In this document: piece after piece, positions 7,927 through 51,356 of the stretch | Position numbering within the stretch: the first letter of the stretch is position 1 | Layout of the letters: each line of letters starts with the position of its first letter | Assembly: GCA_026014585.1 (NCBI GenBank) | Contig: JAOZIA010000005.1 | Span: 1 to 64,000 of the forward strand | Source of the DNA: Candidatus Bathyarchaeota archaeon | GTDB lineage: Archaea; Thermoproteota; Bathyarchaeia; Bathyarchaeales; Bathycorpusculaceae | DNA length: 64,000 nucleotides | Direction: 5' to 3' | Notes under the pieces: generated by a model | The model's database searches: none | What the model was told of the DNA's origin: nothing | Seen by the model: the letters and a program-made list of their open reading frames with translations, nothing else | Translations under genes and position numbers: made by a program

Positions 7927-8004
7927 GGGCCAGTAGATCAGCCTGGTATGATCGCCGCGTTCGCAACGCGGAAGCCGCGGGTTCAAATCCCGCCTGGTCC
8001 ACCA
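7927..8004 (+). tRNA. tRNA-Ala (anticodon CGC)
   Basis: A complete cloverleaf: acceptor GGGCCAG pairs with CTGGTCC, D-arm GATC/GATC, anticodon stem CCGCG/CGCGG around loop TTCGCAA (anticodon CGC, reading GCG), T-arm GCGGG-TTCAAAT-CCCGC, discriminator A at 8001 and an encoded CCA at 8002-8004. The third acceptor pair is G3-T70, the G3:U70 wobble that marks alanine tRNAs. No intron. An A-rich CTAAAAAA at about 7889-7896 may be the upstream promoter element. Confidence 0.95.
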
Positions 8005-17153: not shown

Positions 17154-17948
17154 TCAGGGAACTGGTTTAGGGGCTAATTTTTCGCGTAAGCGGTCAACGG
17201 CGGTAAATCGTAAACCGCTTCTTTGCAATGCCACTAGTACACCTGTTCCTATGAGTGCTCCACATAGGCAGTTGAGTGAATCCGCAATTGCATAATATAA
17301 TGTTAATGGTGCCCACCACATATACATTTCAGGCACACCCCAACCCATGACCCAAACGCCAATGTTGTTTCCTGTCGCAACGTCTCCACCTATTCTTGCA
17401 GTCCACGCCAGACACCAAAGTGCCGCTACAACGTATTTTTTGTCAAGAGTCACGATGGAGTTTATGATTTTCTTTCTAACGGGAGGCACCAGCAGGAAAA
17501 CAAAAACGGGCACGAACTCCCAGAGTATGATGGGCATGAGTTGATAGTATGCGAAGGGGTGAGCTAGCCAGATTGCGAGTTGAAGGGTAAGCAGGATTGT
17601 TGCTTCTTTCCATCGGTTGTATAGAAGTAAGCCGCCCATGAGTGCTGACATTGTTGGAGCAAGAAAAGTTAGGAGGCCTATGGATGTTGCTGGGCTAACG
17701 TATGGGACGAGCATTCCGAAGATGAGCCCTGCGGCGGTTCCGTATATTGGTCCAAGAAGTGGCGCAGTCATGCTTGAGAGTAGTATGCTTGATACTGTGA
17801 TGGTGGCTCCTGTGCCAAATATGGGGTATGCGGGGATGATTGATGTGACAAGGAGCAGGGCTGTCCATGTTGCGACTAACGCTATGGTTATTGTGGTGAA
17901 GGTTTTTTTGAGGTTTACTTGGTCGGTAACCATTTTTGTGCACCCCAT
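17154..17948 (-). CDS. Polytopic membrane protein, ECF S-component-like
   Basis: A 264-aa protein with about six to seven hydrophobic helices. The opening, in which a helix is followed by a loop with several small residues and GPIYGTAAGLIFG, resembles substrate-binding (S) components of ECF vitamin transporters and related membrane proteins, but no ATPase genes are adjacent. A second ATG 6 nt downstream could also serve as start. Its promoter region overlaps that of the divergent DHPS-related gene. Substrate unknown. Confidence 0.7.
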   Translation of the reverse strand: MGCTKMVTDQVNLKKTFTTITIALVATWTALLLVTSIIPAYPIFGTGATITVSSILLSSMTAPLLGPIYGTAAGLIFGMLVPYVSPATSIGLLTFLAPTMSALMGGLLLYNRWKEATILLTLQLAIWLAHPFAYYQLMPIILWEFVPVFVFLLVPPVRKKIINSIVTLDKKYVVAALWCLAWTARIGGDVATGNNIGVWVMGWGVPEMYMWWAPLTLYYAIADSLNCLCGALIGTGVLVALQRSGLRFTAVDRLREKLAPKPVP

Positions 17949-18053
17949 TGTAATATTATTCTACGTGTTGTAATTTTTTACACTACAATATTAAAGTTTC
18001 CCAACAAAAAACATATACAAAACCACCCACAAATCAAACAAGAAGGCAACACT

Positions 18054-19625
18054 TTGAAAGCACTCCTAATCACAGGCACCCTTGCACAACCCATCGTAGA
18101 ACAATACGCAAAAGAAAGCAACATAACCACAGAAATTTTAGCCCTAAAAACCCAAATCGCCGCATTCCTAACCCCCCAAACCATAAAAAACGCACTCCAA
18201 ACACACAACCTCAAAGACATCAACATCATCCTAACCCCAGGACTAATGCCAGAAGACACCCAAACCATCACCGACACCTTCAAAATCCCCACCTTCAAAG
18301 GACCACGATACGCCGCAGACCTACCAGCCATTTTAGACTCTCTAAACGAAGTCACACTCTCCACAACCGTGCCCGCTGACGATATTTTACGGGAAAAACT
18401 GCAGCAAAAAGCCCTGCAGGAGTTGGAGCGTGTGGAACAAAATCGTGAGGAACTTCTCAAGCGTGAGGGCAGTTTACTGATTGGGGGTTTGGCGGTGAGT
18501 AAAGCTTTGCCCATGCGGGTACTGGCTGAAATCGTCGATGCACCGCTTTTAACAGATGAAGAGATTGCTAGGCAGGCTAAAGAGTATGTGCAAAATGGAG
18601 CAAACATGGTTGATATTGGGATGGTCGCAGGGAAAAACAGCCCCGAGGAGGCAAAGCGGGCTGTTTTGGCTGCTAAATCCGCGGTTGATGTGCCTGTTAG
18701 CATTGATACTCTAAAACCAGAGGAAACCAAAGCCGCCATTGATGCAGGTGTGGACTTAATTTTGAGCATTGATGAGGGCAACATGGAAGAATTGGCGTCT
18801 TACGCAAAACATGTACCAGTAGTCATCATTCCCTCCAACCAGCGCAAAGGCATCTTCCCCCGAACAGTAAAAGCCCGAGTGCAAATGCTTAATCGCTTAA
18901 TCAAAAAAGCCCAAGAGTTAGGCTATGAAAAAATCATCGGTGACTTAATTTTGGAACCCACCAACATAGTAGAGTCCTTTTCAGCTTTCCGAGCTTTTGC
19001 AGAAAAAAACCCTACGACACCTCTGCTAATTGGTGTCTCAAATGTCACTGAGCTTTTCGATGCAGACTCTGTAGGCATTAACGCATTGCTTGCACGTTTA
19101 TCCAGCGAGGTAGGAGTGGATATTTTGCTGGTAACGGAGAAAAGCCCTAAAACAAGAGGAACCGTAAGTGAAATCTGTCAAGCCGCTCGTATGATGTTTT
19201 TAGCAAAGAAGCGGGGCAGTGTGCCGCGGGATTTGGGGTTAGACTTGCTTATTTTGAAGGATAAAAATTCGCGGGAAATTCCTTATGACACAGCTTTAGA
19301 AGGTTCATCCAAAGTTTTAGTTGTTAAAGAGCAAGATTTGCCCTTCACGGTTGACCCAAAAGGGATTTTCAAAATTGCCCTTGACCGCCAAGAAAATCTC
19401 ATAGTTGCATTGCATTTTAAATCCTTCGAAGCCGAAAAACCCTCAAGCATAATTAAAGGCAAAACTGCTGAGTCAGTGTTGGGGAAGATTTTGGCGTTGG
19501 AGCTTGTTTCGCAGTTTGGGCATGTAGCGTATTTGGGGCGCGAGTTGGGTTTGGCTGAGGTTGCGTTGATTACTGGGAAGGAGTATTTGCAGGATGGCGG
19601 CTTGTTTAGGGCTTGTGGTTCTTGA
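18054..19625 (+). CDS. Dihydropteroate synthase-related protein
   Basis: A 523-aa protein with an archaeal N-terminal domain (about 1-110), a helical linker and a central pterin-binding TIM barrel (about 150-400) with ANMVDIGMVAG, DVPVSIDTLKP and LILEPTN, like dihydropteroate synthase and MtrH-type barrels. A C-terminal domain follows. This matches the archaeal DHPS-related family (methanogen MJ0107 type), not a true folate enzyme; it probably acts on a pterin C1 carrier or an undefined substrate. TTG start at 18054 behind AGAAGG; upstream in-frame codons lack a ribosome-binding site. No corrinoid or methyltransferase partners are adjacent. Confidence 0.82.
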   Translation: MKALLITGTLAQPIVEQYAKESNITTEILALKTQIAAFLTPQTIKNALQTHNLKDINIILTPGLMPEDTQTITDTFKIPTFKGPRYAADLPAILDSLNEVTLSTTVPADDILREKLQQKALQELERVEQNREELLKREGSLLIGGLAVSKALPMRVLAEIVDAPLLTDEEIARQAKEYVQNGANMVDIGMVAGKNSPEEAKRAVLAAKSAVDVPVSIDTLKPEETKAAIDAGVDLILSIDEGNMEELASYAKHVPVVIIPSNQRKGIFPRTVKARVQMLNRLIKKAQELGYEKIIGDLILEPTNIVESFSAFRAFAEKNPTTPLLIGVSNVTELFDADSVGINALLARLSSEVGVDILLVTEKSPKTRGTVSEICQAARMMFLAKKRGSVPRDLGLDLLILKDKNSREIPYDTALEGSSKVLVVKEQDLPFTVDPKGIFKIALDRQENLIVALHFKSFEAEKPSSIIKGKTAESVLGKILALELVSQFGHVAYLGRELGLAEVALITGKEYLQDGGLFRACGS

Positions 19626-19782
19626 AGATGAGTGTTGATTTAACATAAAAATGTTAAAAATGAAAGGTTTTTTTACCGTTTTTTAAACGGTAAATTTTTT
19701 CTACAAAATCAGGGTTTTTTAAATTTTTGGGCTTTATTTAACGCCTTTTTGCTGGTTAGCCCAAGAGTTCGACCTTAGACAA

Positions 19783-19791
19783 GTTTTAAAT
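19783..19791 (+). promoter_or_regulatory. TATA box of the lysine-rich micro-gene
   Basis: TTTTAAATA about 40 nt before the GTG of the 16-codon gene. Expected transcription start is near 19812-19817, giving a short leader that contains a GAGG ribosome-binding site. Confidence 0.4.
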
Positions 19792-19829
19792 ACAGAATCA
19801 AGTCAATAATAGAAATCGAGGTTGGAAAC

Positions 19830-19880
19830 GTGGCTAAAGCTGCAAAAAAGAAAACTAAAAAGACCGTTAAGAAAAAATAA
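19830..19880 (+). CDS. Sixteen-residue lysine-rich micro-protein
   Basis: A tiny gene: GTG start, GAGGTTGG ribosome-binding site about 10 nt upstream, 16 codons, TAA stop and an immediate T-rich terminator. The product is MAKAAKKKTKKTVKKK: ten Lys, three Ala, two Thr and one Val besides the start Met. It resembles the tails of histone H1 and of basic bacterial chromatin proteins, and free DNA- or RNA-binding is the simplest idea. It has its own TATA-like element and stands in a 380-nt gap between two larger genes. Its size means the case rests on the complete set of expression signals rather than on similarity. Confidence 0.5.
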   Translation: MAKAAKKKTKKTVKKK

Positions 19881-19903
19881 GCTTTTTTCAAGCCTTTTTT
19901 CCA
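19881..19903 (+). terminator. T-rich terminator after the micro-gene
   Basis: Two runs of six Ts (GCTTTTTTCAAGCCTTTTTT) directly after the stop codon, with a weak GCTT/AAGC inverted repeat. This is typical of archaeal intrinsic termination. Confidence 0.5.
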
Positions 19904-20007
19904 TCATTTTTCTTTTCATAGCACACTATTTAAATAAAATGTGTAAACCAATCTTAAGATAAACTTATATTATCTTTTTTCCTAAAATTAGTTAAAGGTT
20001 ATTTCAT

Positions 20008-20877
20008 TTGGTTTCTTCTTCTGATGATTATTATTCAATTATTCAAGAAAAGGATTTACAAAGCACCAATAGCCAATCAGAAAGTAGAACAAGCAACCAA
20101 CTAAACAACTACACATTAGACCTTGAACAACTAGTTAAGAAACAGAAAAAACAGCTAAAAGAAGCAGAACGCATGGCAGCAATTGGGCAAACCGCAGGCA
20201 TGATTGGACACGACATCCGCAACCCCTTGCAGGCAATCTTAAACGAGCTGTACCTTGCAAAAAGTCAAGCCTTAGAAATATCTAACGGGGAAGTCAAGAA
20301 TTCAATACAAGAAAGCATGCTCTTTATTGAAGAGCAGATAGCATACATCAACAAGATAGTCTGCGACCTGCAAGATTACGCTCGACCCCTAAAACCTGAA
20401 ATAAAAGAAAACATCATCCAAAACTTAATCCAAGACGCAATATGCACAATCACAATCCCCAAAAGCATCCGAATCAAAGTAGCCTCAGATAAACACATGC
20501 AAACCGTCAAACTAGACGATTTTTTTACAAAACGTGTACTGGTAAACTTGTTGACAAACGCGATTCAAGCCATGCCAAACGGGGGAATCATAACCATAAA
20601 GACTTTCCCTCATGCAAACAATGCAATAATTACTGTGGAAGATACGGGCGTTGGGATACCTGATGAAGTGAGACATAAAATTTTCACTCCACTTTTCACC
20701 ACGAAATCTAAAGGGCAGGGATTTGGTTTGGCTGTGGCTAAACGGTTAATTGAAGTTCAAGGGGGAACCATCAATTTTGAAAGCGAAAAAGGCAAAGGCA
20801 CAAAATTCATAATCTGCTTCCCAGTGCACAGAGTGAAAAACAGAACCTTGCTGGATTATACACCCACATTAATCTAA
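20008..20877 (+). CDS. Sensor-less histidine kinase, paralogue of the 8047 kinase
   Basis: A 289-aa kinase with only a Ser/Asn/Gln-rich N-terminus (1-35), a short coiled coil (36-55), HisKA with His68 in GMIGHDIRNPLQ, and HATPase_c (LTNAIQAMPNGG, DTGVGIPD, GQGFGLAV). It has no PAS, transmembrane or receiver domain. The catalytic half runs parallel to the kinase at 8047 nearly motif for motif, so it is a duplicate without the sensor. TTG start behind AAAGGTT. It may take its input through another protein or act as a shared phosphodonor. No cognate response regulator is in the window. Confidence 0.88.
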   Translation: MVSSSDDYYSIIQEKDLQSTNSQSESRTSNQLNNYTLDLEQLVKKQKKQLKEAERMAAIGQTAGMIGHDIRNPLQAILNELYLAKSQALEISNGEVKNSIQESMLFIEEQIAYINKIVCDLQDYARPLKPEIKENIIQNLIQDAICTITIPKSIRIKVASDKHMQTVKLDDFFTKRVLVNLLTNAIQAMPNGGIITIKTFPHANNAIITVEDTGVGIPDEVRHKIFTPLFTTKSKGQGFGLAVAKRLIEVQGGTINFESEKGKGTKFIICFPVHRVKNRTLLDYTPTLI

Positions 20878-49781: not shown

Positions 49782-51356
49782 CTACTGTGCCTCCGCTTCT
49801 TCTTTTGGGTTTAAGCAGACGTTTACGGAACTGTTTAGGGCCTTGTGGACGCTACGGAAATCACGCATGTTAGTTTCCACCATGTTGAGCAGTATGCGTT
49901 TTCTGCGTTCAAATTCCTGCTGAACCACACTTAACGGTGCGTCAAGATTTTGAGCGATTTTTTTTAGCAGGTAACTGTCTTGTAGGTTCTGCTGGAAGGT
50001 GTCTGAGGACATGTTCCACGTGAAAACCTCATGAGTTGCGCCACCGTTGTCTATTTCGGTGACTTTGGTGAATTTTCTTGAAGACATTTTGCGGTGGTGA
50101 GAATTAAAGCATGAAGTTTTAACCTGTTTAACCACAATAACACAATTCATCAGTGAGAGAATGTTTGTGGGGATGTTCATGGGCGGCTGGGTAAGCCTCA
50201 TAACTACGCTTTCAACATCATCAGCGTGCATAGTACAAAGGCCACCGTGACCAGTAGCCAAAGCCTGAAACAGCACATACGCTTCTTCACCTCTGATTTC
50301 GCCCACCAAAATCAACGCTGGACGGTGACGCACAGCAGACTTGATGAGGTCGTAGAGTGTGACTTCTCCTTCACTGTCGCCGCCAAAACCTGTCCTTGCA
50401 ATGGTGGAAACCCAGTTTTCTTGCGGTAGATTGATTTCTTGGACTTCCTCTACAGAAATCATTTTGAAGTCAGGGCGGACAAGGCAGGCAACAGCGTTTA
50501 ATGCTGTGGTTTTTCCTGCTCCTGTGGGACCAACAACCATTACGGACATTTTGTTTTCCATAAGCATCCAAAGGTATGCACCGATGGATTCGTCGATGGT
50601 TTCGTTTAGTATGAGGTCCACGATGGTTAATGGATCTTCTTTGAATTTTCGGATTGTGAAGCTTGTGCCTGCGGGGGTTGTTTCTTTGCCAAACGAAACA
50701 GCTAGACGATGCTTTCCCGGCAATGTCAAGTCAACGATGGGGTGTGCGATGCTGACGTGTTTACCTTGTCTGTGAACGATGCGGGTTACGAAATCATCAA
50801 GTTCTTCCTCGTCGGTGAAGACGATGTTTGTTTTGGCGTTGGCGTATTTTCTATGATAAATGTACACAGGTTTATTGATGCCTAAGCAGCTTATGTCTTC
50901 AATTAGTGGGTCAGAAAGGAGTGCATCGATTTTTCCGTAACCAATCAAATCCTTCTCAAGATAGTAAATAATTTTGCGCAAGCCTACCTCATCAGCTTCA
51001 ACTGATTTGGAATGTTGCTCAAGAATTGCTGGGAGTTGTCTGTGGAACGAGTCAACAAGAGTTTCATCAATACGGGGTGCTTTAAGCTCATATTCCAGAA
51101 TATTTTTTAGGCGTTTGAATGATTCTCGTTCTTCTTTGGTCATGCCGAGCTCATCAATCACGTAAAAGTAGCTTGCTTCGGAATCATCTTGAAACACCCA
51201 AGCGTAGGAAAACGGCGCATTTAACGGGTAACTTTCAACTTGACTATATCCTTCAGGAACCTGATACCCCTGAATGCCAAGTAAAGCTATCATTTCTTCA
51301 TCGCTGGTTTTTTCTTTTTCCGCCATTTCCTCTTGCTTTTTCTTTTTCCCAACCAT
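49782..51356 (-). CDS. Type IV pilus assembly ATPase (TadA/FlaI-like)
   Basis: A 524-aa secretion ATPase that powers pilus assembly. N-terminal domain with Lys/Glu-rich start, then the RecA-like core: Walker A VVGPTGAGKTTALN, Asp-box region, Walker B ILVGEIRGEEAY and the His-box GHGGLCTMHADD. It belongs to the archaeal GspE/FlaI superfamily. It is directly followed by the platform gene and preceded by two minor pilins, an arrangement typical of archaeal type IV pili. Confidence 0.92.
   Translation of the reverse strand: MVGKKKKQEEMAEKEKTSDEEMIALLGIQGYQVPEGYSQVESYPLNAPFSYAWVFQDDSEASYFYVIDELGMTKEERESFKRLKNILEYELKAPRIDETLVDSFHRQLPAILEQHSKSVEADEVGLRKIIYYLEKDLIGYGKIDALLSDPLIEDISCLGINKPVYIYHRKYANAKTNIVFTDEEELDDFVTRIVHRQGKHVSIAHPIVDLTLPGKHRLAVSFGKETTPAGTSFTIRKFKEDPLTIVDLILNETIDESIGAYLWMLMENKMSVMVVGPTGAGKTTALNAVACLVRPDFKMISVEEVQEINLPQENWVSTIARTGFGGDSEGEVTLYDLIKSAVRHRPALILVGEIRGEEAYVLFQALATGHGGLCTMHADDVESVVMRLTQPPMNIPTNILSLMNCVIVVKQVKTSCFNSHHRKMSSRKFTKVTEIDNGGATHEVFTWNMSSDTFQQNLQDSYLLKKIAQNLDAPLSVVQQEFERRKRILLNMVETNMRDFRSVHKALNSSVNVCLNPKEEAEAQ

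Follow-up and report, generated by a model that had tools for sequence, protein, structure and literature searches.

Among ribosomal proteins, the very small eL41 and bTHX are Arg-rich, and eL41 also contains Trp. Lys-rich H1-like proteins and linker-histone C-terminal domains, for example those of chlamydial HC1 and HC2, are long and repetitive and have a low-complexity composition of A, K, P and T, whereas the archaeal chromatin proteins Alba, Cren7/Sul7d, MC1 and HTa are small, basic DNA-associated proteins that have folded domains. The his and trp attenuator leader peptides are encoded by short ORFs that are rich in one amino acid and lie upstream of a gene. Among archaeal histones, some of those from Heimdallarchaeota, Huberarchaeota and Bathyarchaeota B23 bear Lys-rich N-terminal tails (PMC6136690). 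The micro-gene described below, which lies in a 64-kb stretch of bathyarchaeal DNA (hereafter the window), shares some features with each of these systems. Like eL41 and bTHX, its product is tiny, extremely basic and encoded by a gene of its own, but it lacks their Arg. The A/K/P/T composition recalls that of HC1 and HC2, which are, however, far longer and repetitive, whereas the micropeptide has a fixed length of 16 residues and a conserved pattern; Alba, Cren7/Sul7d, MC1 and HTa are likewise small and basic, but are folded and several times longer. With the his and trp leaders it has in common a short ORF dominated by one amino acid, and it differs from them in its variable downstream gene, in the lack of alternative hairpins and in its conserved non-Lys residues. 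It also resembles histone tails, both the eukaryotic H4 and H3 tails and the archaeal tails just mentioned: the micropeptide is similarly short, Lys-rich and presumably disordered, and a sister form lies next to a histone gene. In contrast to these tails, it is a separate gene and chain, it contains no Arg, and the form found in the window is unlinked to a histone gene.

The micro-gene is a 16-codon ORF on the plus strand (19830-19880), reading from GTG at 19830 to TAA at 19878-19880. Its product, MAKAAKKKTKKTVKKK, contains nine Lys, more than half of its 16 residues, and no Arg; the initial annotation had counted ten Lys. The ORF is located in a gap of 382 nt (19626-20007) between a pterin-binding/DUF4346 gene on the left (17919-19625) and a histidine kinase gene on the right (20008-20877), with pyrD and then a pyrK-like gene (named by eye) following 3' of the kinase. 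The kinase gene, which separates the micro-gene from pyrD, comes with a TATA-like box of its own, and among the genus loci compared a kinase in this position is found in the window only. A full expression unit, consisting of TATA-like box, ribosome-binding site, GTG, 16 codons, stop and T-rich terminator, had been proposed for this gap; all of these parts could be located, and the same geometry recurs in 17 further loci. In each of the 18 units, the TATA box TTTTAAATA (at 19784-19792, plus strand, in the window) starts 45-46 nt ahead of the start codon, and its TTTTAAAT columns are invariant in the alignment of units. A Shine-Dalgarno-like GAGG (19818-19821, plus strand) stands exactly 12 nt ahead of the start codon, again in 18 of 18. 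Downstream of the stop codon, a predicted U-tract terminator of the archaeal kind extends from 19883 to about 19916 on the plus strand (TTTTTT, TTTTTT, then CATCATTTTTCTTTT). The first T-run begins 2 nt past the stop in the window and 27-35 nt past it in 17 of the 18 units, and most relatives carry a (C)CCTCATTTTTCTTTTTT-like tract 3' of the stop codon. A terminator-like hairpin ahead of a T run was also found at 19672-19694 on the plus strand (one found by the scan, compared with a shuffle mean of 0.1); it probably ends the upstream gene, thereby setting the micro-gene apart from it. The sole tRNA detected by a tRNA scan of the window, a tRNA-Ala at 7927, is unrelated to the micro-gene.

Within the window, the micro-gene is the only intergenic Lys-rich short ORF (13-27 aa, with a Shine-Dalgarno-like site and at least 45% Lys), and no such ORF occurred on either strand of 60 first-order Markov copies of the window. 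Elsewhere in the window, a further short ORF rich in Lys (51290-51352, minus strand) was dropped, being out of frame within a long ORF. When the 161-nt unit was used as a blastn query against 100 genomes, the window's own included, short chance matches appeared nearly everywhere; 17 further fetched loci (L003-L018, L021) matched over at least 63 nt. The 16-codon frame is present in the window and in all 17 of these loci (18/18); the units were extracted by a script that selected for a Lys-rich frame, a filter that all fetched loci of at least 63 nt passed. The other 12 fetched loci (L019, L020, L022-L031), with matches of 20-42 nt, had no 16-codon frame. Two additional listed matches of at least 60 nt were inspected: that in G095:C2 holds MAKKAKGKTKKGGKKK (translated by eye), and that in G021:C28 holds no such frame. 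An exact 23-nt string from the start of the unit, a query that proved too strict, had no match in genome contigs.

The pattern of substitution among the units is that of a coding frame. Across 17 distinct ORFs, codons compared in frame show 607 single-base differences, and 454 of these are synonymous (0.748), compared with 153 of 702 (0.218) and 44 of 676 (0.065) in the other two frames. For the ORF body the synonymous fraction is 0.787, a value that none of 1,000 column shuffles reached (mean 0.21, maximum 0.44). The coding test was also run on 23 sequences chosen by a degenerate pattern; because such a pattern itself permits third-base freedom, the test was repeated on the blastn-found units, with the same result. 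Ala, Lys and the final KKK are retained across units while third bases drift. Conservation in relatives had been named at the outset as a check, and frame, start, stop and peptide are indeed all kept in the 17 further loci.

One alternative put forward beforehand that would overturn a coding gene was a noncoding RNA; in this case, or in that of a promoter remnant, the ORF would be accidental. The nearest hint of such an RNA is an L10-leader match in Rfam, which at 19.6 bits is far below the gathering score of 44 (E 0.55). No Rfam family was found at the gathering score, the best sub-threshold matches having E values of 0.52 and 0.55. Among 18 sequences, four base pairs were predicted and none of them showed a compensatory change, no alternative hairpins were conserved, and the transcript folded no better than shuffled sequences (z -0.15). 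Together with the strong codon signature and the fixed frame and length, these results make an accidental ORF hardly credible. Rather, the fixed geometry and frame, the synonymous bias and the lack of conserved RNA structure show, at the level of sequence, that the micro-gene is a protein-coding gene of Bathyarchaeia. With only 16 codons and a rigid promoter spacing, start, length and stop, it would come close to the lower size limit of conserved protein genes with a transcript of their own, and it is far too short for standard annotation.

The conservation spans a genus and sister genera, all of them uncultured archaea. The exact 16-codon pattern occurs in 23 of 256 genomes of the class, one copy in each, and the reversed control pattern gave no match among the matches listed for these class genomes. 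Twenty of the 23 belong to the genus of the window (20/32) and three to two sister genera. Across 84,980 GTDB species genomes, the pattern was found on 19 contigs, none of them bacterial, labelled Candidatus Bathyarchaeota archaeon (12), Candidatus Bathycorpusculum (3), Crenarchaeota archaeon (2) and Nitrososphaerota archaeon (2); the last four contigs presumably represent the same lineage under broader labels. A sequence-only profile, R2, was built from 32 units, which match it by construction. At E<1e-12 it detects the unit in 43 of 90 genomes of the family, including 22 of the 32 in the window's genus, and in 2 of 166 other genomes of the class (G095 and G081, from other families of the order). 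Of the 43 family genomes, 42 proved to have an intact frame, the one in G115 appearing broken. The copy in that genome (L136, G115:C17:401885-402007) has kept TATA, GAGG and U-tract and lacks an intact Lys frame, as a decayed copy or a sequencing error might. Outside the class, G256 and G401 alone among 398 phylum genomes searched passed 1e-6. These two genomes, from other classes of the phylum, carry short Lys/Glu-rich frames (MSKKAEKKKEEKKEEKKK in L276 and MCAPPKKAEEKKKEAEKKQ in L277), which may be analogues. A viral origin was also considered and set aside: the patterns of the window's form (type 1) and of the sister form (type 2) each matched no viral contig.

The 50 peptides collected are 15-26 residues long, 29 of them exactly 16, and most genomes have a single copy. 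They contain 455 Lys, no Arg and no aromatic residue; for comparison, nine proteins of the window hold 204 Lys and 105 Arg. More distant candidates include the 13-residue MASKKAKKAKKKK of G160 (by eye), MAKKKSGKKGKKGKKK of G209, a Cys-bearing form described below, and VSRCAKGKSKKARKKKK of G081, the last of which carries Arg and was left out of the 50. For three longer members (20-26 aa), Pfam and NCBIfam returned no family at E<=1, the 16-mer being below the search minimum of 20 residues, and the 26-residue member had no match among PDB sequences. Those sections of the literature on archaeal small proteins and chromatin that were consulted contain no annotated or published counterpart.

A link to histones comes from the sister form, type 2 (MAKKPVKKEEKKxPAKKK and variants, 17-19 aa), which occurs in four members of the genus, with four copies in G023. 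A divergent accessory histone gene (PF00808) adjoins it in six of seven copies; the contig of the seventh ends 121 nt upstream, so that all six copies with sufficient flanking sequence are paired. The pairs (G023:C27, C44, C43 and C79, G013:C23 and G018:C47; L124, L130, L131, L132, L128 and L129, respectively) have start-to-start distances that, sorted by size, are 124, 125, 126, 126, 127 and 416 nt. Because four of the six lie in one genome, they are partly duplicates of one arrangement and not six independent events. The proteins encoded around three of the pairs resemble, by eye, mostly those of ordinary chromosomal genes, which likewise speaks against a viral origin. With histone positions taken from PF00808 matches and tblastn, the 76 fetched stretches around profile matches (927 kb) contained histones only at these six pairs, and no histone gene was present in the stretches fetched around type-1 units. 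Conversely, no intergenic Lys micro-ORF was seen in 40 stretches around other histone genes, including that at G000:C10:42067-42246 in the window's own genome; the few ORFs flagged there were out of frame within the histone gene or unrelated. Histones were found in 87 of the 90 family genomes, and all 32 genus genomes match the histone family. In none of 27 histone frames read is the fold followed by a Lys-rich tail: most stop where the fold does (..MGK or similar), and three (the second copies in G021 and G010, and that of G018:C47) have a few extra non-Lys residues. A search for the YEATS reader domain was silent in all 90 genomes, as it was in the control, and therefore carries no weight.

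The description of the peptide as a detached histone-type tail in the initial annotation is therefore borne out in part. The pairing of the sister form with histones, the Lys-only composition and the tail-less state of histones in the same genomes agree with it, and the window's own form is unlinked to a histone gene. The unit is not covalently part of a histone-fold protein, since it is a stand-alone frame with a stop in 18 of 18 units. On these grounds we consider it about evenly likely (probability roughly 0.5) that the product is a disordered Lys-only polycation whose target would be nucleic acid, probably in the form of chromatin, and which would work in trans to histones that lack tails. 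In such a scheme, the TATA box would drive synthesis of an RNA of roughly 110 nt, in which the 5' leader, as estimated from the TATA position, would take up about 15-18 nt; GAGG would start translation at GTG in vivo and the U-tract would end transcription. Because residue 2 is Ala, Met would probably be removed, leaving a 15-residue polycation, A-K-A-A-K-K-x-x-K-K-x-x-K-K-K. This peptide may then bind nucleic acid as a free counter-ion, similar to a histone tail or a linker histone, most probably on the chromatin of tail-less histones. As about a third of the genus has no type 1 although all 32 genomes match the histone family, type 1 is not essential for histone chromatin. If the peptide does act on chromatin, archaeal histones without tails could be served in trans by a tail-like function, a point of direct relevance to the origin of histone tails.

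A more far-reaching proposal, which we regard as tentative and somewhat doubtful, is that Bathyarchaeia encode histone 'tails' as separate genes, that is, as Lys-only micropeptides of 13-26 residues that have a tail or linker function in trans and are a possible substrate for lysine modification, some of them sharing a divergent promoter region with accessory tail-less histones. If true, this would be chromatin whose tail and fold are two genes.

An association with the ribosome, in which a basic micropeptide similar to eL41 or bTHX neutralises rRNA or another RNA, would also fit the extreme basicity, tiny size, mostly single copy and simple, strong-looking promoter; moreover, two of three pairs with a wider neighbourhood read lie a few kb from genes that by eye resemble translation factors. 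However, Arg is absent from all 50 members whereas eL41 is Arg-rich and contains Trp, the patchy occurrence in the genus (20/32) is unlike that of a core ribosomal protein, and the sister form adjoins histones. The eL41 model PF05162 matched none of the 13 genomes searched from the same genus and one of 21 in total, a negative that is weak because none of 14 control genomes gave a match. We consider such a role rather unlikely.

The neighbourhood of the unit differs among lineages. In the genus, the unit is usually found 150-290 nt upstream of pyrD on the same strand; in other genera genes for ferritin-like (9 loci), coiled-coil or LOR-domain proteins take the place of pyrD, and several copies, including three type-2 copies in the compared set, have no close same-strand neighbour. 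This setting of type 1, in most cases a place on the same strand 5' of pyrD or a ferritin-like gene, gives no hint of a role in chromatin. It could be taken to suggest a regulatory leader peptide, in which read-through into the gene that follows would depend on how the ribosome behaves along the Lys run, as the ORF is short, has many Lys codons and a terminator, and precedes a same-strand gene at that distance. By eye, however, a TATA-like element belonging to pyrD itself can be recognised, even in genomes that lack the unit, and there is a subclade that has pyrD and lacks the peptide; the unit is therefore independent of pyrD. The changing neighbours (including the kinase in the window), the copies without a close same-strand neighbour and the element that pyrD keeps for itself make a dedicated leader peptide very unlikely, and so do the lack of conserved alternative hairpins and the conservation of exact length and of the non-Lys residues Ala/Pro at positions 2, 4 and 5 with free synonymous change. 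At G005:C84:13470-14337, pyrD gave two matches, one with an internal TAG, as in a broken gene or an assembly error.

The use of Lys without Arg suggests, on general grounds, a lysine-specific role such as acetylation, methylation or polyphosphate binding. The peptide might thus have a target that is not nucleic acid, whether another polyanion or some other partner: it might bind polyphosphate, buffer anions, act as a regulator with modified lysines or serve as a tail for one partner protein. The neighbouring genes (pyrD/pyrK, ferritin-like, coiled-coil and LOR-domain) indicate no consistent partner, and we judge this explanation unlikely. If the target were RNA or polyphosphate, the family would still be a new class of polycation peptide, and under either reading a synthetic 15-mer is cheap to test.

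Two other kinds of Lys-rich product were encountered. At L023 (G025:C113:67030-67071, minus strand) there is a small Lys-rich protein of about 31 aa, which starts with MAKKPTKAEDEKKK (by eye) and is at an unrelated position. A Cys-bearing Lys micropeptide, VSCKKKxxKKKxKEEEKKK and similar, is present at L261, L262, L263 and L269 (genus g9) and at L260 and L274, and has its own GAGGTG site and U-tract.
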